A stretch of 64,000 nucleotides of DNA from Panorpa germanica. Taxonomy: Eukaryota; Arthropoda; Insecta; Mecoptera; Panorpidae. The stretch's first letter is position 1. Each line of letters begins with the position of its first letter. Where the stretch lies: contig OY783214.1 of assembly GCA_963678705.1 (NCBI GenBank), positions 15,686,001 to 15,750,000 on the forward strand, in the 5' to 3' direction. Positions 2,738 through 57,638 of this stretch are shown in pieces. Position numbers and translations under genes: made by a program. Below the pieces are notes generated by a model that was not told the origin of the DNA, searched no databases, and worked only from the letters and a program-made list of their open reading frames with translations.

Positions 2738-3316
2738 AATGGGCTTGTTACAATATCTATTTTCGTCTAACTTCTAACATTTTTTAGTGGTCGATTTTTC
2801 AATTGTTGATTGAAATTGATTTTAATAAATGTGTATTGGCGTGTCTATTTCATTAAATATCTAAATGTTGACGGAGATATAGCAATTAAAAATTTTAATT
2901 GTAGTTTTAGCGCTAGAAATGGTCGGTCAGTGCTGTGGTAATGTTTTGTAGCTGTTGGTAGTCGAAATAATCAAGTCAAGCCAAAGAATAATAAGATTTT
3001 ATTTTATTTAACCCTGCTAAGGCAGACATAATATTGAAATTTGATTGTTCCTTAAAAAGCTGTATAATATTTGATATTTTGTTATATAAATACATATAGC
3101 AGAGATTTATGAGGTGTAAGGTTGATAACCTGTATACTTGTCAGAGTTCTGTCAAGAATATATCTCTTTTACGCTCTGTTGTATAAAAGAGATAGCAACA
3201 TAGCGGTTATGAGGCAACATGCATTTGGAATGTTTTGACTTTTTCAATTATAAATATCTCCTAACATATAAGGAGTTATTAAACAATAAATGCATATTTA
3301 AGAGTCTAGTAAGTTT
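2738..3316 (+). mobile_element. GGGCTTGTGTCC MITE, copy 1 (old, right end lost)
   Basis: It begins AATGGGCTTGTTA and follows the complete copy at 57001-57633 almost throughout: the TTTTTTAGTGGTCGATTTTT block, GCGTGTCTATTT, TTTAGCGCTAGAAATGGTCG, CAGAGATTTATGAG and CATATAAGGAGTTATTAA. It carries a segment with CTCTGTTGTATAAAAGAGAT that the complete copies lack but the fragment at 51781-51943 shares, so these two form a subfamily. The right terminal inverted repeat is no longer recognisable. It is non-autonomous and has no ORF. Confidence 0.65.
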
Positions 3317-30700: not shown

Positions 30701-33492
30701 TGGAAATGGAAATAGAAATAGAAATAGTTTGTTTGTAACTGACTCGGAAATATATTAAATTAATATATTCAAGGATACTGTTACTTATACGCTTTGTATT
30801 GCTTTTATTAAATTAATTTCAGTTTTCTGAATAACAAATAAATATATATATTAATTCTTTCATGAAGAAGTTACAAAATAAGGCAAAGATTTTTTAGCTG
30901 CGCACGGATGCAACAGCTTTCACGAGCCTGACAATTTATTTGTTAACCCCTGAATACAATCGTTAAGGGATGCGGCGTTTCACCATTACCGCACTGGCAT
31001 TGGCAGTGTCTTCACTAAAGAAACTTAAGAGAAATAAATGGATACAATAGCCAACTATTTCCAAATAGTTTTACTGAAGTGAAATAAAACATGAACATGT
31101 CGCCAACAGTGTTATAAATGATAGTTTATTTTCCAATAACACATTGATTTCGAAATACGACTTGTAGTAGCAACAGAAACATAAGGCTACATTGAGTAAA
31201 GCTAAAAGGATCTAATGCCGTCTGCAGACCATTTGTTAAACTTTTTTTTAAGTTGTTGCCATAGAAACCAACATATTTAAGTATTTAAAAGTGGATGTAC
31301 TTTTTCTTCAAATAATTTTTACTTATGCAATATTTATTCAGAAGTAAATCGATTATGTCGGACCCGCCATAGAAAACGATGAAGCAACTCACAACTTAAA
31401 ACAATACCTAATGCATATCCATATTTAATGTAATACCCAACAACTAATCTAACAAGTTCACAGTCACAAAAAAGTTTAAGCGAAAGAAAATGTTTTTTTG
31501 CGAAAAATAAAAAGAGTTTTCGAACTGTTAGGAAAGAAGATTATAATTGTTAAAAAATAAAGTTTTTAAGTGATATCTGGAAAGAGTATGAACTAAAACA
31601 TTTGCAATGATAATAATACTTTGCTTTAAGTTTTAAGCCGAACAACTCGGTAAAACTTTACCCTAGTTACCCTGGTGTTACAATAAGAATCAGCACTAAA
31701 TAGAAAAGCAGAAAGCTTAATGGTCATGGATATTCGAGCTTTTATTATTTTTATAAATAAGTTGAATGGGAAGAATATGATATTTGTGCATATAGAATGT
31801 AAAAGTCATTATCATAGACAAGGAAGATTGATGTACGAATATAAATGCTTTAATATTTGAAAATGCAGGTTGTATCAATAAGAGCTGATTGTTTTAAATT
31901 TGCCATCATTTCGGAACGGGACTGTTGGAATAGTAATAGTTCGATTATATCGATCATCCAGCTTATCATCTCTGAAAAATCGATGTTTTCTGTGCATCTC
32001 TAGTAAAGACTACGTAGCCTTTACTCATACGCAGTCTTAAGTGCTGTTAATTTAGGGCTATATACTGCTACAGCCCAAACTTAATAGTTTTGTAACTTTT
32101 AAATCACTTCGTTTTACAGTTTTGCACTTCGTTGTGTGGAAATATAATTTTAAAAGGATAATGCATTTACACTTTATGTACGTACTTACAATACGATGAA
32201 ATTTAATGCACGTTACTTGTAAATTTTACTTTATAAAGTAAATTTGGTTTACGAAAAGTTTTATGATTCTTCAAGGTTTTGTTTTAAACGTATAACGATA
32301 ATGCATCATTTCTTGCAATCATACGTTGTGTCTTATATTAATTTGTATATGTTTGATAGTATAATAAGTCTACAACATCAAAGGCTTAAGGAATCAAATA
32401 TATAAAAACCAATATCTTAATATATCACTACCTAAAGTGCAATTAAAAATTCCTGCCCTTTATTTCTTTCTCCAGTATTTAGGGCACTTAATGTTTATGG
32501 CACTGTTACCCTCGATAGCGACTGAATTCTAAAAATCTTCTCTTGTTCGTTACTTTCATGCAGCAGGCCATTAAATCGATCTGGAGATCTACCACGAGAG
32601 AACAATTTAATCCGTTCTGAATCTTTATTTAACATTCATAATCAAAAGGTTATTCTTCTCTGGCACATATGATAGCTTAAAAGTTTTTTGAACACAGTGA
32701 AACTAAGGTCTTAATGATTTTCTGCGTTTTCTTTATATAATACGTTAGATTATCACATGAAAAGTTTCTTATTCACAAAGTTACTAAATTATACATGTTT
32801 AACACTACAAGATCTTTTAAATAATACTCATAACATTTGCTAGCTTACCACAAACTAATTCGAACGTTCATTTGTAAAATACTGTGCTATAGGTTCTGCT
32901 ATTTCTATCTAATTGATTACGTCATTGGTAAAGGCATACAGCAATGCATTAATTAATATCAAAGTCATTTACACTCCATGAAATATATATGCAATCTATT
33001 TGTGGCATCTAATGGTCATAAACCACGGTCTTAACAATACATCAATTAATACCAACAATATGAAAGGCTGTAATTCAGGTGAGAGTAATCAATAATTGTC
33101 CAGTGTACAGCCGGCTTGTTATCGTAGCATATATCAAATTGGATTCAGATAACGCAACGCACCCGTCAATATGTTTTGTTGTTCATATCGGGCTGCATCG
33201 CAGATGAACAGTGATAGCTGTTGTAATATGTTCAATAATGGAGCAAACCGCCGTCCGCCTTGTACTGGTACTAGTATACAGGGTGACTTACAGGGTCTTC
33301 CATTTATCCGTGGGTGGTAGTGTAGGGTAAAAGCAGTCGATAATTGTTGAAACACTTTCTTAATAGTTGCATGTTAAAGGTGCTGGCAGAAATTATGCAG
33401 TTCGTTCTAAAATAAGAGAAACTACTGCTTAAATATTTTTCGTTTCTGAATAACTTTTTTTAAATGTACTTATATTTTGTAATTTGTTTCAG
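27751..33492. other. Long AT-rich stretch without recognisable gene
   Basis: No gene can be supported. It holds a perfect 11-bp stem with a 3-nt loop at 29204-29228. A copy of a dispersed repeat with CAAGCTAGCAAGTATGT lies at about 30100-30190 (others at 43790-43870 and 48165-48290). A GC-richer island at 33130-33360 is open on both strands (73 codons minus; a Cys-rich 50-codon frame from 33172 plus), but I recognise neither product. A tRNA-like block near 28950-29010 was considered and not accepted. Confidence 0.4.
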
Positions 33493-33779
33493 GTTTGCCT
33501 GAGGAGCCAGATGCAGCTGCAATGAGGCCAAATACCAGCATCATGTCCATGACTTTCTACGACGAACAGCTGGATGATGATCCTGATGATGCAGAGGCCG
33601 ATGATGCATGCCATCGATGCAAACAGCGAAACGAGCTTCGAGTTAGTTCACGTAAATAGTCGGTGTTGACCTAGCTGCCAACGTAGAGAAAGGGGCTACA
33701 GTTCCAGAAGACTTCTACGGGATCTATGAAGCCGTTGACGGAGCTACTACGCGCCCCGCAAAAAAAAATTAATAATGGT
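33493..33779 (+). pseudogene. Fossil exon, copy 1, bounded by splice-like sites
   Basis: A strong acceptor (AATTTGTTTCAG) precedes it and a strong donor (ATG|GTAAGT) follows. One frame reads PEEPDAAAMRPNTSIMSMTF, then YDEQLDDDPDDAEADD and CHRCKQRNEL, to a TAG at about 33657. Another frame downstream reads VGVDLAANVEKGATVPEDFY then GIYEAVDGATTRPAKKN, to a TAA. The protein-like composition in two successive frames suggests a formerly continuous acidic coding exon broken by a frameshift. It is GC-richer than its flanks. A shortened second copy lies about 390 bp downstream. I do not recognise the parent gene. Confidence 0.4.
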
Positions 33780-33885
33780 AAGTTTTTTCTAATGTATAAA
33801 AGTCTTGCTTTTTTATCATTTTAAGAAGGTTATGGTCTTCTTTAATCATATTAATTTTACTTACACTTTATAATTTGTTTCAGGA

Positions 33886-34015
33886 TTGGCTGAGGAGCCA
33901 AATGCAGCTGCAGTGAGGCCAAATATCAGATTAGGTCCATGACTCTTTACGACGAGCAACTTGAACACTTCCCCGGGAGTTTATGAGCCCGTTACGCAGC
34001 TAATACGCGCCCCCA
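33886..34015 (+). pseudogene. Fossil exon, copy 2, shortened
   Basis: It starts after the same TTTGTTTCAG acceptor and repeats copy 1 (LAEEPNAAAVRPNI in the equivalent frame), then CTTTACGACGAGCAACTTGA and a GCTAATACGCGCCCC-like end. Large internal deletions and an early TGA make it non-coding. The intervening sequence also matches upstream sequence of copy 1 in part, so exon and flank were duplicated together. Confidence 0.4.
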
Positions 34016-35352
34016 CCAATGTGTGAAAATTGGACGACATTTCAACAAAAAGTTAAAAGTGGAAAAGTTATTCTAAAGTGAAAACTTTATTTCTCTTAAT
34101 ATAGTAAATTGAACTTTTTCATAATTTTTAACAAGATTATAGTCTTCTTTCGAGAAAAAATTAATATTCTGCTGTATTTACGTATTGCAAAATGTATGAC
34201 TTACAAATATATGAAAATAAAAACACTTGTAATTAATTTTACTTCTTTTATTTATATATTATAAAATTCAGAAATACATTAGAAAAAGAATTCTTTTGAA
34301 ACATTTCACATAGATCTAAAGAAGAACAACAAAAATTCGATTTTTTAAGAAGGTTATACACTTTTTTCAATGCAGAAACTGGGAAAACCTTATTTCTCTT
34401 AATATATTAAATAGAACCTTTTCATCATTTTTAACAGAGTTACAACCTTCTTTCTACAACAAATTTATAATCACAAGGATTTTTTAAGTTTAAAATTCTT
34501 CTTTGCAAACATTTATTCGAGCCATAAATAACAGCATAAAACCAGCCGTGAATATCATAAACTGTTTTACCTAAAATGCATAATTTCCCAAGACAATAGT
34601 TTTGTAAACAAACGATATTTTATTCAACATTCCAACATTTCGTTACCGTTACCGCGTTGCATCTGCCGTTAGTCGTTAGTCCTTAGTCGTTAGTCGTTAC
34701 CATTGCTGTACTTTATAGTTGTTTAGTTTAAGTTTTCTGACTTAAAGTTTTCAAATAATTTCTAAACTATGCACATAACAAATACGTAATAGTTTCATGT
34801 ATTGCAGTGACAAAGAACTTGCAACTTTTTTCATTTAACTTTGTCAAAGTTCAAGGAATGTTCTATTACGAGTATGTTTCGTTTATTGTTCCTTAAACTG
34901 AATTGTTGTTAATTGTGTTCTATATAGTAGAGTGGCAACCTTACTTTCCGTCAAAATATTTTCGTGATTTTACGAGATTTTTAACATAAATATTTTTCTT
35001 TAGATTGACTTGAAGTTTTGAGGCAACGTTGCATTCGTATTTCTTTACTAGTGAAGTAGGACTAAAAGATGGTTTTGCTTCTCTACTAACAGCGCTTATG
35101 CCGTGAGAACAAATATACAAACTCTTTCAACCCGGAACAAGTCATTATAATTAACGTAATTTATGTAGTCTGGTGCAATAACTTTGCAAACTTACTTAAC
35201 TGCAACATATGGAACTCCAGAAATTTAAATAGTAAATTAGTAGTAGAAACTAGAGTAGTAGTAGTAAGCTAGAAAGTGCAAGCATTACAATACAAGTCAA
35301 TTTCTACATGAGAAGTAAAAAATAAACATTGAACGAATGTGACTTTTGTATT
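34016..35352. other. Flank of the giant inverted repeat, with shared modules
   Basis: The module TTTTTAACAAGATTATAGTC with TTCTTTC appears at about 34120-34155. A variant, TTTTTAACAGAGTTACAACC, lies at 34425-34455, and a weaker one is near 33820-33850. The same module sits at the core of the giant inverted repeat (36605-36635, inverted at 37125-37160 and 37316-37350). A short tandem GTTAGTC/CTTAGTC repeat lies at about 34668-34707. No gene is seen. Confidence 0.5.
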
Positions 35353-36600
35353 TTTTTTTAAGTTTAAATTTTAAATAACTAAGCGTGTCTGTTTCTTATG
35401 CGACCTTTTTTTATTTTCATGGACATTTTTTTCTAAATTTTTTTTTTGATTCTTTAGAATAATTTGATGCAGTTATATTCGTTAGGCTTTAAATTAAAGA
35501 ACTGCTTCATTACATTTTAAATATCTACACGATTCTGGCTTTTAAGCGACCTTTTTTAAATTCATGGACTTTTTTTTCAAATTTTTTTTTTTTTATTTCT
35601 TGAAATTTTTTGATGCAGTTATGTTCGTTAGGCTTTAAATTAAAGAACTGCTTCATTACATTTTAAATATCTACACGATTCTGGCTTTTAAGCGACCTTT
35701 TTTAAATTCATGGACTTTTTTTTTCAAATTTTTTTTTTTTGATTTCTTGAAATTTTTTGATGCAGTTATGTTCGTTAGGCTTTAAATTAAAGAACTGCTT
35801 CATTACATTTTAAATATCTACGCGATTCTGGCTTTTAAGCGACCTTTTTTAAATTCATGGACTTTTTTTTTCTAAATTTTTTTTTGGATTTCTTGAAATT
35901 TTTTGATGCAGTTATGTTTGCTAGGATTTAAATTAAAGAACTGCTTCATTACATTTTAAATATCTGCGCGATTCTGGCTTTTACGCGACCTTTTTTAAAT
36001 TCATGGACTTTTTTTTCTAAAATTTTTTTTTGGATTTCTTGAAATTTTTTGATGCAGTTATGTTTGCTAGGATTTAAATTAAAGAACTGCTTCATTACAT
36101 TTTAAATATCTACGCGATTATGGCTTTTACGCGACCTTCTTTAAATTCATGGACTTTTTTTTCTAAAATTTTTTTTTGGATTTCTTGAAATTTTTTGATG
36201 CAGTTACGTTCGCTAGGCTTTAAATTAAAGAACTGCTTCATTACATTTTAAATATTTGCCCGATTCTGGCTTTTACGCGACCTTTTTTAAATTCATGGAC
36301 TCTTTTTTCTAAAATTTTTTTTTCGATTTCTTGAAATTTTTTGATGCAGTTATGTTCGCTAGGCATTAAATTAAAGAACTGCATCATTACATTTTAAATA
36401 TCTGCGCGATTCTGGCTTTTACACGATTTTTTTTAAATTCATGGACTTTTTTTCTAAATTTTTTTTTTGGGATTTCTTGAAATTTTTTGATGCAGTTATG
36501 TTCGCTAGGCTTTAAATTAAAGAACTGCATCATTAGATTTTAAATATCTATGCAGGAACTCAAAAAATTGCATTGCTCTTAAAATCATAAAAGTGAACCT
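35353..36600 (+). repeat. Giant inverted repeat, left arm: 8 tandem 146-bp units
   Basis: The anchor GCGACC (or its variant) occurs at 35400, 35546, 35692, 35839, 35985, 36131, 36277 and 36423, a period of 146-147 bp. Each unit contains AAATTCATGGACTTTTTT, long T-runs, GATTTCTTGAAATTTTTTGA, TGCAGTTATGTTCGCTAGGC and TTTAAATTAAAGAACTGC. Within a unit, TGATGCAGTT and AACTGCwTCA form a further inverted repeat. The first unit is the most divergent (TTTTCATGGACA). No credible ORF exists. Confidence 0.9.
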
Positions 36601-37124
36601 TTTCATCATTTTTAACAAGATTATAGTCTTCTTTCTATATGGAGATTTAATATATTGATATATCATAAACTAAAATACTTATTTAAAAATAAATAACAAA
36701 TTTGAAATCAGCATTCAAAACTACGTTAAAAACCATTAAAAAATAAACAAATTATTTTTTTCAATTTTCATGAAAAGTAAGAAGGCTATAGCCTTCTTAC
36801 TTTTGTTAAAAAAATCAAAATTTATTTTGACGTATAATATATGTTTTCAAACGTAGTTTTGTATGCTGATTCAAAAATTGAAATCCATTTTTAATTACCT
36901 CTTGCGGTTAATGAGTAATCGGCGTTTAAAGATTTATTTTATTTCGATTTTCATAAGAAGTAACAAGAGTATAACCTTCTTACTTTTCATAAAAATTTAA
37001 GAAAATATATTTGTCATTTTATAACGGATTTTAACTTAATTTTGAATGCTGATTTCAAATTTATAATTCATTTTTAAATAAGTATTTTAGTTTATGATAT
37101 ATCAATATATTAAATCTAAATAAA
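36601..37124. repeat. Core of the giant inverted repeat
   Basis: The core is itself mirror-symmetric about position ~36880. The segment beginning at 36645 (ATTTAATATATTGATATATC) is found inverted, ending at 37115. The left half holds a perfect 32-bp palindrome at 36773-36804 centred on GGCTATAGCC. The mirror position on the right (~36955-36990) holds an eroded version with GAGTATAACC in the middle. No ORF is present. Confidence 0.85.
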
Positions 37125-38990
37125 AGAAGACTATAATCTTGTTAAAAATGATGAAGAGGTTCACTTTTATGAATTTAAGAGCAATGGAATTTTTTGAGTA
37201 TCTGTGTAGATATATAAAATCTAATGATGCAGTTCTTTATTTTAAAGCCTAGCGAACATAACTGCATCAAAAAATTTCAAGAAATCCAAAAAAAAATTTA
37301 GATTATATCTCCATATAGAAAGAAGACTATAATCTTGTTAAAAATGATGAAAAGGTTCACTTTTATGATTTTAAGAGCAATGCAATTTTTTGAGTTCCTG
37401 CATAGATATTTAAAATCTAATGATGCAGTTCTTTAATTTAAAGCCTAGCGAACATAACTGCATCAAAAAATTTCAAGAAATCCCAAAAAAAAAATTTAGA
37501 AAAAAAAGTCCATGAATTTAAAAAAAATGGTGTAAAAGCCAGAATCGCGCAGATATTTAAAATGTAATGATGCAGTTCTTTAATTTAATGCCTAGCGAAC
37601 ATAACTGCATCAAAAAATTTCAAGAAATCCACAAAAAAAATTTAGAAAAAAAAGTCCATGAATTTAAAAATGGTCGCGTAAAAGCCAGAATCGCGCAGAT
37701 ATTTAAAATGTAATGATGCAGTTCTTTAATTTAAAGCCTAGCGAACATAACTGCATCCAAAAATTTCAAGAAATCCAAAAAAAAATTTTAGAAAAAAAAG
37801 TCCATGAATTTAAAAAAGGTCGCGTAAAAGCCAGAATCGCGCAGATATTTAAAATGTAATGAAGCAGTTCTTTAATTTAAAGCCTAGCGAACATAACTGC
37901 ATCAAAAAATTTCAAGAAATCCAAAAAAAAAAATTAGAAAGAAAAGTCCATGAATTTAAAAAAGGTCGCGTAAAAGCCAGAATCGCGCAGATATTCAAAA
38001 TGTAATGAAGCAGTTCTTTAATTTAAAGCCTAACGAACATAACTGCATCCAAAAATTTCAAGAAATCCAAAAAAAAAATTTAGAAAAAAAAGTCCATGAA
38101 TTTAAAAAAAATCGTGTAAAAGCCAGAATCGCGCAGATATTTAAAATGTAATGATGCAGTTCTTTAATTTAATGCCTAGCGAACATAACTGCATCAAAAA
38201 ATTTCAAGAAATCCAAAAAAAAATTTTAGAAAAAAAAGTCCATGAATTTAAAAAAGGTCGCGTAAAAGTCAGAATCGCGCAGATATTTAAAATGTAATGA
38301 AGCAGTTCTTTAATTTAAAGCCTAGCGAACATAACTGCATCCAAAAATTTCAAGAAATCCAAAAAAAAATTTTAGAAAAAAAAGTCCATGAATTTAAAAA
38401 AGGTCGCGTAAAAGCCAGAATCGCGCAGATATTTAAAATGTAATGAAGCAGTTCTTTAATTTAAATCCTAGCAAACATAACTGCATCAAAAAATTTCAAG
38501 AAATCCAAAAAAAAATTTTAGAAAAAAAAGTCCATGAATTTAAAAAAGGTCGCGTAAAAGCCAGAATCGCGCAGATATTTAAAATGTAATGAAGCAGTTC
38601 TTTAATTTAAAGCCTAGCGAACATAACTGCATCAAAAAATTTCAAGAAATCCAACTAAAAATTTTAGAAAAAAAGTCCATGAATTTAAAAAACGTCCCGT
38701 AAAAGCCAGAATCGCGTAGATATTTAAAATGTAATGAAGCAGTTGTTTATTTTAGAGCATAACGAACATAACTGCATCAAATTACTCTAAAGAATCAAAA
38801 AAAAATTTTAGAAAAAAATGTCCATGAAAATAAAAAAGGTCGCATAAAACCCAAAATCGCATAGGTATTTAAAATCTAATAATGCAGTTTTTTATTATAG
38901 AGCATAAAGATCATAACTGTATCAAAATATTCCAAAGAATGAAAAAAAAATTAGAAAAGAATGTCTAAGAACTTAATAAAACTTAGACAT
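37125..38990 (-). repeat. Giant inverted repeat, right arm: 10 inverted 146-bp units
   Basis: The inverted anchor (GGTCGC or variants) occurs at 37529, 37672, 37818, 37964, 38110, 38256, 38402, 38548, 38693 and 38838. A weak eleventh partial unit follows to about 38990. The core-proximal module (GACTATAATCTTGTTAAAAA) is present twice (37125-37160 and 37316-37350), a local ~190-bp duplication absent from the left arm. The outermost unit (ATGTCCATGAAAATAAAAAA) mirrors the divergent first unit of the left arm. Confidence 0.9.
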
Positions 38991-40794
38991 CATTGCGCCT
39001 GACAGAGCGGCAACATTACTTACGAGTAAAATTTACAGTATGTGACAATATTTACAGACTAAAAGTAACAACTAATTGAAGGCGCAAGAAATATTACGTT
39101 TTTATCAGCAATTAAATTTAACCGTTTTTGTTAAAATTAATTAAGAGTTATACAGCAAAAAGTAACAATAATTTTTTTAGTTTTTCTAAAATTCGGGTTT
39201 CCAGGAAATTCAGGGGAAAATCTGAGGACGCCATAAGTCTTATAATTTCATTCTCTACGAAATAGGAAATTTTCAGAAACATTGACGAAGCCGTTTTCGA
39301 GCTATAAGAATATAAACATACAGTTGGAATATTATAATATAGGATAGACGTTGTTTGAAATCATTTCTGCCATTCGTTTTATTTTGCAGTGAACCGGACT
39401 GTGCATAATTAAATATTTAACCGCAGCGTAATGGTTTTAATATTTTAATAAAATATAATATCTGCTTGCATGAACATATTGAATTTTCTCGTATTTTCAT
39501 TGTGTTTTAATTATAGGTGCAGTGCGTGCGTATTGTGTAATAATATTTACAACGCAAACTGGCTGAGTTTAATTACAACAATTACTATAATGTGGAAAAC
39601 GTTGCAGACAACGCAATTATTAAAACGACAAATATATACATTTAGAACAACGAAACACAGAAACGGGTGTGCTTCATTTTATTGTTATTATTTTGACTAA
39701 ATATTCAAAAATTAAAAGTTGGGTAAATGTAAATTATAAATAATGAAAATAAAAACAATTTTCCATTCTACATGCGATAATGCTTAACCTAAAGGAGCGT
39801 CACCACTTGTACAATACTTGTCTACAACGCTGTGTTTAGATGTATCCTCCTCCGTTCCCATTGTCTCATGTTGTTTGACCTCCAAACCTATTGTGACATT
39901 ACACATTTGAACAAAAATTTAGTCCAGTTTTTTTTCTTTTTTTGGAAGTTGAATTTTAGATGAGTTGCCAAATTTTCAGCGATTCTTTTAAATAAAAATA
40001 CAAATATTTTCTATAAAATAATTTTTTTTATTTATAATTATGATACATAATTATTTATATAACACAGTGACCGAGAACGTTGAGGCGTGGTGCTTGTCTG
40101 CAATATTTTTAATGTCTTTTGAACTTGTGTTTTATACCTAGTCTAAATTACATTTGAACTCAAAAAAACATCATTGCCTCAACGATCTTTGCAGTGGTAC
40201 TAATTCAACGAATTTTTACAACTGGTATGTAAATATAAAGCCCTCAAAAATAAAGTTCTTTAAGAAATCATATATTTACTTATATCTAAACATAAACAGA
40301 TGACGAAATAAATTAATTAAATTTATAATATTGACTATCGTTAAATATTTTAGAATTCTTTCTTTAACAAATATTAGTATTTCAATTATTGAATGTTTTT
40401 GTTTTTGCGAGTAAGTTAAAGTTGTGCTTTTAAATATAGTTCAGTTTATGAGAGAGCGAATACTTATGCTTAAAAGAGTTATTCCATATAAATACACGAT
40501 ACGATGGTGAATTTTATATCTTTCTCGCTCTTCCATACATTATAGCAAAATCAACAAATGGCTTAAATTTTTAAGCATAAGTCTTCGGCGATCTGTCATA
40601 AATGTTATTATAAAAAATAAACAAACATGCACATACCTTTGTATTTGCATATACATATGATATTCAGTGTAGGTTTTACAACAGAACAGCATATACATAG
40701 GATATGTAATTTACATGAATGTATATACCTAGAATACTTTATGTATATCCAAATGTTTTTTAGAAATCTATAACAGTAACATGCAAACATAGCA
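38991..40794. other. Intergenic between the inverted repeat and the phospho-lyase gene
   Basis: No gene can be supported. The plus-strand ORF 39470-39700 and the minus-strand ORF 40608-40790 have no recognisable motif. The last ~100 bp may be 3' UTR or downstream flank of the phospho-lyase gene. Confidence 0.45.
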
Positions 40795-41050: not shown

Positions 41051-53047
<11,997 letters not shown>

Positions 53048-53300: not shown

Positions 53301-54090
53301 GAACACAGGTTAATCGATGTTACTCTGAGTTTCTTATGATTTAGCTAGAGTAGCGTAACCGCTTATATCACTAAGAGTAGGGTCAAAAAAACTTGAGTAC
53401 ACTGCTAATTTAATATGTATGTTAGAGAAGGATAGAAAATGTTGATCGATTACTTCCTTTCTCATTGGTGTAATTGTATGACGCTAACAATTTTTAAACT
53501 ATTTATTCATAGATTCTCAAACTTTTCAAATAAATTAATAATAATTACTACTTCTGAAATATTAATTAGTTAATATATATTTGGTTACCTGGGAAGTAAT
53601 TAAGAAGTTTTGAAAGTCCTGTTTTTAAATCAATTAAGTAAAATTTTAGGAATTCATTTAGAAATAGTAGATTACAATGTCAATATACATCGTTAATAAC
53701 ATTTCGAAGTAGAAATGTTAATTTTACAGAATAAATAGCTAGACGTTCAAAATTGCAAGAATAATTAGTGTCTATTAGACAAAGGCTCATTATCATTTTC
53801 TAAGCAAATATTTAAAGAATTTTAAACTGAAATCGAAACTTTAAATAGAATAAACAAGGAATGCAATATATAAATAGCATTCCCAACAACCATTGTGTTA
53901 TGAGATTTAACAATTTTATCATAAAAAAAATATCCTAATAAACTATTTGAATGAAAAATAATTATAATTCATTAAACATACCTCGAGACACAATAGAATG
54001 CTTCTTCGAATATAACATTCTATGCAAAGAAACAATGTGATTACCTTAACAACATACAGTTTCCTGCAAATATGTGCGTTTACAGTTAAT
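53301..54090. other. Upstream intergenic, nothing recognised
   Basis: AT-rich, with no ORF of note, no hairpin and no recognisable repeat. Confidence 0.5.
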
Positions 54091-54639
54091 GGGCTTGTGT
54101 CCTATGTCTTAATTTTTATAAAAGTGTACTATATATTGATAAAGTGGGTTACTAAAACCTCAAATGTTCAACTCCTTATATGTTAGGAGATATTAACAAT
54201 TAAAAAAGTCATTTTGTCTCTTTAATTATTAAAAGGATTCAACGTTGTACACATTCCAAGTGCATGTGACATCACAATCCTTGTGTAAGGTTACCAACCT
54301 TACAGCTCATAAATCTCTGCTAAATATTATTTACAGCTATTTCAAGGAACAATAAAATTTCAATATTATTTCTGCCTTAGCAGGGTTAAATAAAATAAAA
54401 ACTTATTATTCTTTGATTTGACTTGATTATTTGACTACCAACAGCTACAAAACATTACCAAAGCACTGACGTACTCAACAAATAACTGACGTTAAAATGC
54501 ATTTTGCGTCATACAAATATGGCCGACCATTTCTAGCGCTAAAACTACAATTCAAACTTTTAATTGCTATATCTTCGTCAATATTTAGATATTTAATAAA
54601 ATAGACATGCCAATACACATTTATTAACATCAATTGCCC
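54091..54639 (-). mobile_element. GGGCTTGTGTCC MITE, copy 3, shortened near one end
   Basis: It begins GGGCTTGTGTCCTATGTC and follows the intron-8 copy in the same orientation to AACATCAATT. It then jumps to a residual GCCCA with a deletion of the GTCGATTTTTCAATTG-type end. 549 bp remain. Confidence 0.75.
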
Positions 54640-56044
<1,405 letters not shown>

Positions 56045-56300: not shown

Positions 56301-57000
56301 AAATTTTTCATTTTTGCAAATACATAGTTACCTTAAGCCACATTCCCACTCACTGTTTCAATGTTAATAACCTAAAATGTAAGTTCAATTTATGAAATAT
56401 AAGGAAATAAAATTAATTGTATTAAATACAATAATTTATATTAATAAAGATAGTAATTATTACAAAATAATGTATATTCTAACGCATGATTTTACAAGTT
56501 CAAAATTACATTTAAGGTTAAAACTGGGTACGATTTCCAATGCCCGTATATTCCGAGATTGACAAAAGCCATTACCTTGAAGGGTTTGTTGGTTATAGGA
56601 CTTCTTAAACAAATACCAGTTTCCATCTAAACAGTTCCATCTAACAATTAGATAATGTTTGAATTGCAACTTATAAATTAGACTTGCAAATTGAGTTTAT
56701 TCACATAATCACATCTTAATCATTTGTTATAAATAAGGCATTAAAATGAATTCTATAGAAGTTCAAAGTTCAATGAAGATATTATATCATTTACTTTTTT
56801 CATTGTTTGACACGATCTATTAAAAGCAGTGATTAATTCTATTGATCACGATTGCAGCACGTGATGGAAACATAGGGAATCTATATTGTATAAATAAATC
56901 AATTATTTAAATATATGCAAATGATCAAGATATGATGGTACTGGAAGACTGCGATTTCAAGTTGACGATGATTCTATCTCGCGATTCTGGATTGTAGAAT

Positions 57001-57633
57001 GGGCTTGTGTCCTCATTTTTTAGTGGTCGATTTTTCAATTGTTGATTGAAATTGATGTTAATAAATGTGTATTGGCGTGTCTATTTTATTAAATATCTAA
57101 ATGTTGACAGAGATATAGTAATTAAAAGTTTGAATTGTAGTTTTAGCGCTAGAAATAGTCGGCCATATTTGTATGACGTGAAATGCATTTTAACGTCAGT
57201 TATTTGTTGAGTAGGTCAGTGCTATTGTAACGTTCTGTAGCTGTTGGTAATCAAATAATCAAGTCAAGTCAAAGAATAATAGGTTTTTATTTTATTTACC
57301 CCTGTTAAGGCAGACATAATAGTGGAATTTTATTGTTCCTTAATATAGCTGTAAATAATATTTGATATTTTGATATATAAATACATACAGCAGAGATTTA
57401 TGAGCTGTAAGGTTGGTAACCTTACACAAGGATTGTGATGTCACATGCACTTGGAATGTGTACAACGTTGAATCCCTTTAATAATTAAAGAGACAAAATG
57501 GCTTTTTTAATTGTTGATATCTCTTAACATATAAGGAGTTATTAAAAAATAATTGAACATTTGAAGTTCTAGTAACCCACTTTATCAATATATGGTACAC
57601 TTTTATAGAAATTAAGACATAGGACACAAGCCC
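57001..57633 (+). mobile_element. GGGCTTGTGTCC MITE, complete copy (reference orientation)
   Basis: 633 bp from GGGCTTGTGTCCT to AGGACACAAGCCC. Including the flanks, the inverted repeat is perfect over 18 bp (AGAATGGGCTTGTGTCCT). It is noncoding, with no target-site duplication I can define with confidence (GATTGT and GATTGA lie outside the 18-bp repeats). Four further copies or fragments lie at 2738, 41631, 51781 and 54091. Confidence 0.85.
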
Positions 57634-57638
57634 ATTCT

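Follow-up and report, generated by a model that had tools for sequence, protein, structure and literature searches.

Helitrons are defined by a 5'-TC and a 3'-CTRR terminus, a palindrome of 16-20 nt located ~11 nt from the 3' end, and insertion at AT without target duplication (PMC4067079, in the part consulted). Their movement is thought to proceed via single-stranded or circular DNA, with the short 3' hairpin as stop signal, and the circles described for Helraiser carry a head-to-tail junction of the 3' and 5' ends (PMC4778049, likewise in part). The non-autonomous rolling-circle elements of the DINE-1/HINE type (Helentron-type) are portrayed, in the sections we draw on, as having T-T insertion, short inverted repeats in subterminal position and a single, one-way array of ~150 bp satellite-like internal repeats (PMC4067079, PMC7492417, PMC8268682). 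Inverted arms made of tandem repeats are known from foldback elements. In Tetris of Drosophila virilis, the arms are terminal inverted repeats that consist of a variable number of ~220 bp units around a middle domain, with target duplications of 8-10 bp (PMC4079207, in the part consulted), and Galileo of the P superfamily is described, in the account available to us, as a cut-and-paste transposon with long, internally repetitive terminal inverted repeats. Finally, Drosophila hpRNA loci such as the hp-CG4068 cluster, an array of hairpins, have long inverted repeats able to form dsRNA and vary in copy number (PMC10317233, in part).

Here we describe a structure in the window, the whole 64-kb stretch of DNA analysed, that is very probably one copy of a dispersed non-autonomous Helitron carrying an internal foldback of more than 1 kb between asymmetric Helitron ends. 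We read it as a Helitron because of its family's ends: TC at the 5' end, CTRR at the 3' end, a T after the 3' end, and a direct CTAG|TC junction in one copy.

Anatomy of the copy in the window

The initial annotation of this DNA had described a giant inverted repeat at 35353..38990, with arms of 8 against 10 tandem 146-bp units around a core of ~525 bp. The anchor motifs indeed recur every 145-148 bp in the two arms, oppositely oriented and with a single step of 196 bp in the right arm, and a profile of the unit run over the 64-kb window returned the same numbers of full units, with all further matches in the rest of the window being noise (E >= 2.9). The core had been underestimated, since the unit-free middle spans ~671 bp, or 888 bp if measured between the outermost full units. 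The annotated range encloses the inverted arrays but is too short for the element, which extends beyond it on both sides (Table 1).

Table 1. Features of the putative Helitron copy, in window coordinates
Feature	Position	Strand	Basis or remark
Whole element, interpreted as a non-autonomous Helitron with internal foldback	35332..39344	-	5' end from comparison with other copies, 3' end from subterminal likeness
5'-TC terminus (GA on the + strand)	39343..39344	-	Next outward base T on the + strand, hence A before TC on the element strand
5' end region, common to other copies (TCCTATATTATAATR..., inner stretch ...TGTTGCCGCTCTGTCAGGCGCAATGATG...)	38982..39344	-	Copy comparison
Right arm: 10 full 146-bp units at 37421-38878 and outer partial unit at 38882-38981	37401..38981	-	Unit profile
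Duplicated arm/core junction with extra partial unit at 37225-37301	37123..37318	-	TRF period 196 over 37123-37500; unit profile match
Unit-free core (36554-37224), itself an inverted repeat: 36603-36812 vs 36948-37157, 80%	36554..37224	.	Self-comparison
20-bp palindrome AAGAAGGCTATAGCCTTCTT, five copies (36614, 36779, 36962, 37124, 37320) at <=4 mismatches	36614..37339	.	Likewise in cores of other loci
Left arm: 8 full 146-bp units at 35365-36532 and ~21 bp	35365..36553	+	Unit profile
3' subterminal remnant, overlapping the first unit	35332..35375	-	Local alignment with 3' ends from five copies; weak BLAST match (E 0.19)

Ungapped pairing of the two arms gives 95% complementarity along one stretch of 832 nt and 96% along another of 686 nt, and one left and one right unit do not differ at all in their aligned columns (100% identity). 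Even the outermost, diverged units of left and right are 82% alike, closer to each other than to the remaining units. At its 3' end the window copy has lost recognizable likeness over the terminal ~25 nt (half of the hairpin plus CTAG), and the remnant listed in Table 1 was matched to the 3' ends of five copies by local alignment, in which none of 500 shuffles did as well for any copy, with a BLAST E of only 0.19.

A stem of more than 1 kb, anticipated in the initial annotation for any transcript through the locus, is also what RNA folding predicts: of the 1188 bases in the left arm, 1127 are paired with the right one, at a minimum free energy of -2045 kcal/mol compared with -643 for one shuffled sequence. 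Such a long inverted repeat capable of dsRNA is a trait of hpRNA loci, here seen in the predicted fold, and the repeats could be taken for the arms of a host hairpin-RNA locus feeding endo-siRNAs. We consider this most improbable, as the structure, with its transposon ends, is scattered over at least 37 places and not confined to a single host locus. If the element is transcribed, hairpin RNA is a possible output, and siRNA could arise as a by-product of the element.

Beside the element lies a gene for a class-III aminotransferase, whose exons, recognized from reading frames, run on the - strand from ~51.6 to 41.2 kb; the element ends ~1.8-1.9 kb downstream of the last recognized exon. When 11 ORF pieces were searched against Pfam, only class-III aminotransferase scored above the cut-off, in one piece, and the exons, when joined, share 59-69% identity with the best 120 proteins listed, mostly from insects and with no close relative among these, which points to an insect as the host. 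No RNA family reached the gathering score. Other repeats in the window include four related copies, 74-90% identical, of a different repeat (2778-3131, 41627-42239, 54088-54635 and 56998-57637), which is probably a MITE since three of the four have inverted ends like AATGGGCTTGTGTCC. A GC-rich exon-like stretch that follows a possible splice acceptor is duplicated at 84% (33460-33574 and 33851-33964) and has no Pfam match, and a perfect (AT)n run of 95 bp occupies 55889-55983.

A dispersed family with two kinds of ends

The search of the unit against the host genome that the initial annotation had proposed revealed a dispersed, multi-copy family. In the 464 Mb of the genome (249 contigs, the window lying within contig C11), the unit query gave at least 172 matches (best 40 of 1336 candidates scored), which by eye fall into 34 places besides the window, and the core query gave at least 144 (best 40 of 1048 scored), with identities of up to 99% among the matches listed, window excluded. 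These copy counts are lower bounds. We compared 37 loci, namely 30 of the 34 unit places, six from the core query and the window; this sample is not random, the first 20 loci having been picked partly for both orientations being listed. Every one of the 37, window included, follows the plan of (+) array, core and (-) array, with 346-1295 bp between the arrays and 3-17 units in each arm's main array. A single-orientation array was seen at none of them, and no coding capacity was found in the element. Two pairs of cores are 99.7% identical over 697 bp (L024 and L027) and 99.6% over 517 bp (L022 and L024), and some movement has therefore been recent.

This recurrence bears on the reality of the inverted organization. 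Chimeric reads can give near-perfect palindromes, and one locus (L012:1154-6778) reads as such a palindrome, with outer arms 99.9% identical over 1262 bp, and continues for 1113 bp past its arrays; either an inverted duplication of young age or an error of the local assembly would give this. For the family at large, however, an artefact from a fold-back read is unlikely because unit numbers and flanks differ among the 37 loci that share the plan, and the arms in the window differ from each other as well, in the number of full units, in many substitutions and in an inner core of only 80% identity. The chance that the structure is an artefact of this kind, or a plain one-way satellite, appears negligible. 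A viral origin was also considered, and neither of two exact-pattern scans over viral contigs returned a match.

When the copies were aligned at their outer ends, two kinds emerged, 5'-TCCTATATTATAATR... and ...CTCGTTGTCTTGCAACGGGCCGAAAAGCTAG-3' (also given as TCCTATATTATAAT... and ...GGGCCGAAAAGCTAG). Since the seeds that located the ends were drawn from the family, these ends document membership in it and the bases at the insertion point and do not amount to an unbiased search. The base after the 3' end is T in all 16 readable loci, corresponding to 13 independent flanks, since L009, L010 and L037 have a common flank, as do L012 and L015; in L051 this T belongs to a short stretch that precedes a second 5' end. 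The 3' end reads CTRR in 13 of the 16 (12 CTAG and one CTGG), the exceptions being CCAG, CGAG and TTAG. At the 5' end, seven of the eight readable loci have TC (the window, L020, L022, L024, L048, L051 and L052; L041 reads AGAC), and five of the eight have A before it. A potential hairpin of 19 nt, CTCGTTGTCTTGCAACGGG, lies 12 nt from the 3' end and recurs with small changes; its folding energy as DNA, -4.7 kcal/mol, does not stand out from that of shuffled sequences, 53 of 200 of which did as well.

Both ends are readable in only four of the 37 loci: L022 (3076 bp, site A^T), L051 (3850 bp, site A^T), L024 (2690 bp, site T^T) and L041 (4101 bp, site C^T, with an altered 5' end). Judged by eye, none of these complete copies has a target duplication. 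Head-to-tail junctions are present at two loci, with CTAG joined directly to TC in L052 and three bases in between in L051.

These ends decide against a true foldback element of the FB/Galileo/Tetris type, in which the inverted arms would be the termini on which a cut-and-paste transposase acts. The initial annotation had named foldback transposons as one of two candidate classes, the other being hairpin-RNA loci, and had allowed for a new element. Much of the foldback anatomy is present: the family is mobile, dispersed and multi-copy, and arms of inverted tandem subrepeats in variable number flank a middle domain at all 37 loci, as in the available description of Tetris (PMC4079207). However, the arms are internal, with mutually unlike, Helitron-type sequences at the ends outside both of them. 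The array edges in the window, tried as element ends, proved to be the wrong place, the 5' end being 363 bp further out; the 800-bp flanks of the window's arms have no inverted similarity (82 of 100 shuffles as good), and short direct matches there are at chance level. Neither terminal arms nor target-site duplications were thus seen, and a foldback transposon in the strict sense is very unlikely.

A further reading would separate the foldback from the ends, as an inverted satellite array captured by, or lying beside, one or more Helitrons. Some loci look as if this were so: inner sequence of the 5' type flanks L011, L017 and L028 on either side, fragments of it lie within or next to the arrays of L014-L016, and most of the 37 loci lack a readable end on one side or on both. 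Such arrangements are more than a simple Helitron accounts for, and rearrangement is common in the family. Against the capture of a satellite, the order of end, arm, core, arm and other end is the same in the independent copies L022, L024, L041 and L051, and all the loci compared have both orientations, so that we give this reading scarcely any credence and retain the Helitron with an internal foldback.

The 20-bp palindrome of the core is likewise a family feature, with at least two copies in each of 26 cores checked (<=4 mismatches) and 110 copies in 21 kb of cores compared with 3 in 77 kb of arrays and ends and 12 in 98 kb of flanks. Within the window, at 4 mismatches, it occurs only in the element and at 33823-34452, where there are four copies (three with <=4 mismatches, one with 6). 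We considered this block at 33.8-34.5 kb as part of the window element, with which it has the palindromes in common, but in L051 (4699-5000) another Helitron 5' end comes directly after the first element and leads into repeats of this kind. This second end with its repeats marks a sibling element type, and the block in the window is probably a fragment of such a sibling.

Inversion of cores and turnover of arrays

Several copies differ in the orientation of their cores. Judged by the sides on which their ends lie, the window copy and L037 are oriented alike, yet one of the two cores has to be reversed to obtain the match of 98.8% over 888 bp (84.7% over 678 bp when not reversed). The core of L010 is likewise reversed relative to the 3' end (98.4% over 885 bp), and a 115-bp loop matches at 99-100% in reverse in both L037 and L010; L045 agrees with the window copy. 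The count leaves out L038, L040, L042, L043 and L044, in which the loop is present and the ends are unclear or missing. Cores reversed relative to the ends indicate inversion of the core, the outcome expected if inverted arms recombine, and flipped cores in near-identical copies provide a readable record of inverted-array recombination.

The junctions of arm and core have an extra partial unit on one side in the window copy, L009, L019, L020, L024, L027 and L037, and on both sides in L010, L011, L012, L017 and L041, a sequence pattern that suggests copying from arm to arm. In a nearest-neighbour test with 459 full units from 26 loci, the closest unit was in the same arm for 190 (8.5 expected), in the other arm of that locus for 46 (9.2 expected) and at another locus for 222 (441 expected). 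The arrays are therefore homogenized locally, and less so between arms. Expansion is not confined to the arms: the core of L018 (1193-2487) holds 12 copies of the 20-bp palindrome, mostly ~87 bp apart, and the core too is therefore capable of tandem expansion.

Three further arrangements were observed. A small copy beside L012 and L015 has a fragment of a (+) unit directly against a (-) unit; inverted subterminal units may have been the starting point of the arms, with this copy as a seed form, or the copy may equally be a deletion product. L023 has a 774-bp direct duplication, 99.4% identical, on both sides of the element. The common 3' flank of L009, L010 and L037 continues for ~266 bp past CTAG (longer in L009 and L037) while their 5' flanks are without match, pointing either to read-through of the 3' end or to a shared duplicated segment.

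A plausible life cycle of the element begins with a Rep/Helicase supplied from elsewhere, which would nick at TC and stop at the 3' hairpin and CTAG. Slippage or unequal exchange would lengthen and shorten the arrays, and the arms would recombine with each other, which would flip the core and carry changes from one arm into the other. Whether the foldback is itself a working part is more doubtful. The Helitron might depend on or profit from the kilobase-long hairpin, either as a structure in replication or stopping or as dsRNA that tunes host silencing. We regard this as a rather unlikely proposal; if true, it would explain the retention of the foldback in all 37 sampled loci together with its recombining, homogenizing arms.

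Comparison with known systems

In the literature searched, we found neither the terminal sequences nor the 20-bp palindrome, and recognized no description of a Helitron with inverted arrays, judging mostly by titles and the openings of abstracts. An inverted-array hairpin is thus known from other transposons and was not found described for Helitrons, which does not establish its absence from print.

With canonical Helitrons, represented by Helraiser/Helibat of bats (PMC4778049, PMC4067079, in the parts consulted), the element shares the 5'-TC and the CTRR-3', as well as the T after the 3' end, usually an A before the 5' end, and the CTAG|TC junction; near its 3' end it has a candidate for the hairpin. 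In contrast to them, it contains two inverted 146-bp arrays and a palindromic core, with no coding capacity found. This combination gives a natural test of the stop-signal model: in a Helitron family that spreads with an internal hairpin of more than 1 kb, helicase and polymerase must pass that hairpin unstopped.

Compared with the hpRNA loci, in the available account of the hp-CG4068 cluster (PMC10317233), the likeness lies in a long inverted repeat able to form dsRNA and in varying copy number. Whereas hp-CG4068 is an array of hairpins, the element here would make one hairpin from two arrays inside a transposon, according to the predicted fold. The element nevertheless disperses loci able to form dsRNA across an insect genome.

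The closest analogues are Tetris and Galileo for the anatomy of the arms and DINE/HINE for the central repeats. Tetris, as far as its description was available (PMC4079207), has the same inverted arms of variable tandem repeats and a middle domain, and Galileo, in the account consulted, the same long and internally repetitive inverted repeats, but in both the arms are terminal, whereas in the element here they are internal and, compared with Tetris, enclosed by Helitron-like ends. DINE-1/HINE, in the portions consulted (PMC4067079, PMC7492417, PMC8268682), are similar in being non-autonomous rolling-circle elements with satellite-like internal repeats of comparable length, but the element here has two inverted arrays in place of one and inserts mainly at A^T. 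It thus unites two things that are separate in the literature examined, the array arms of foldback elements and the central repeats of Helitrons.
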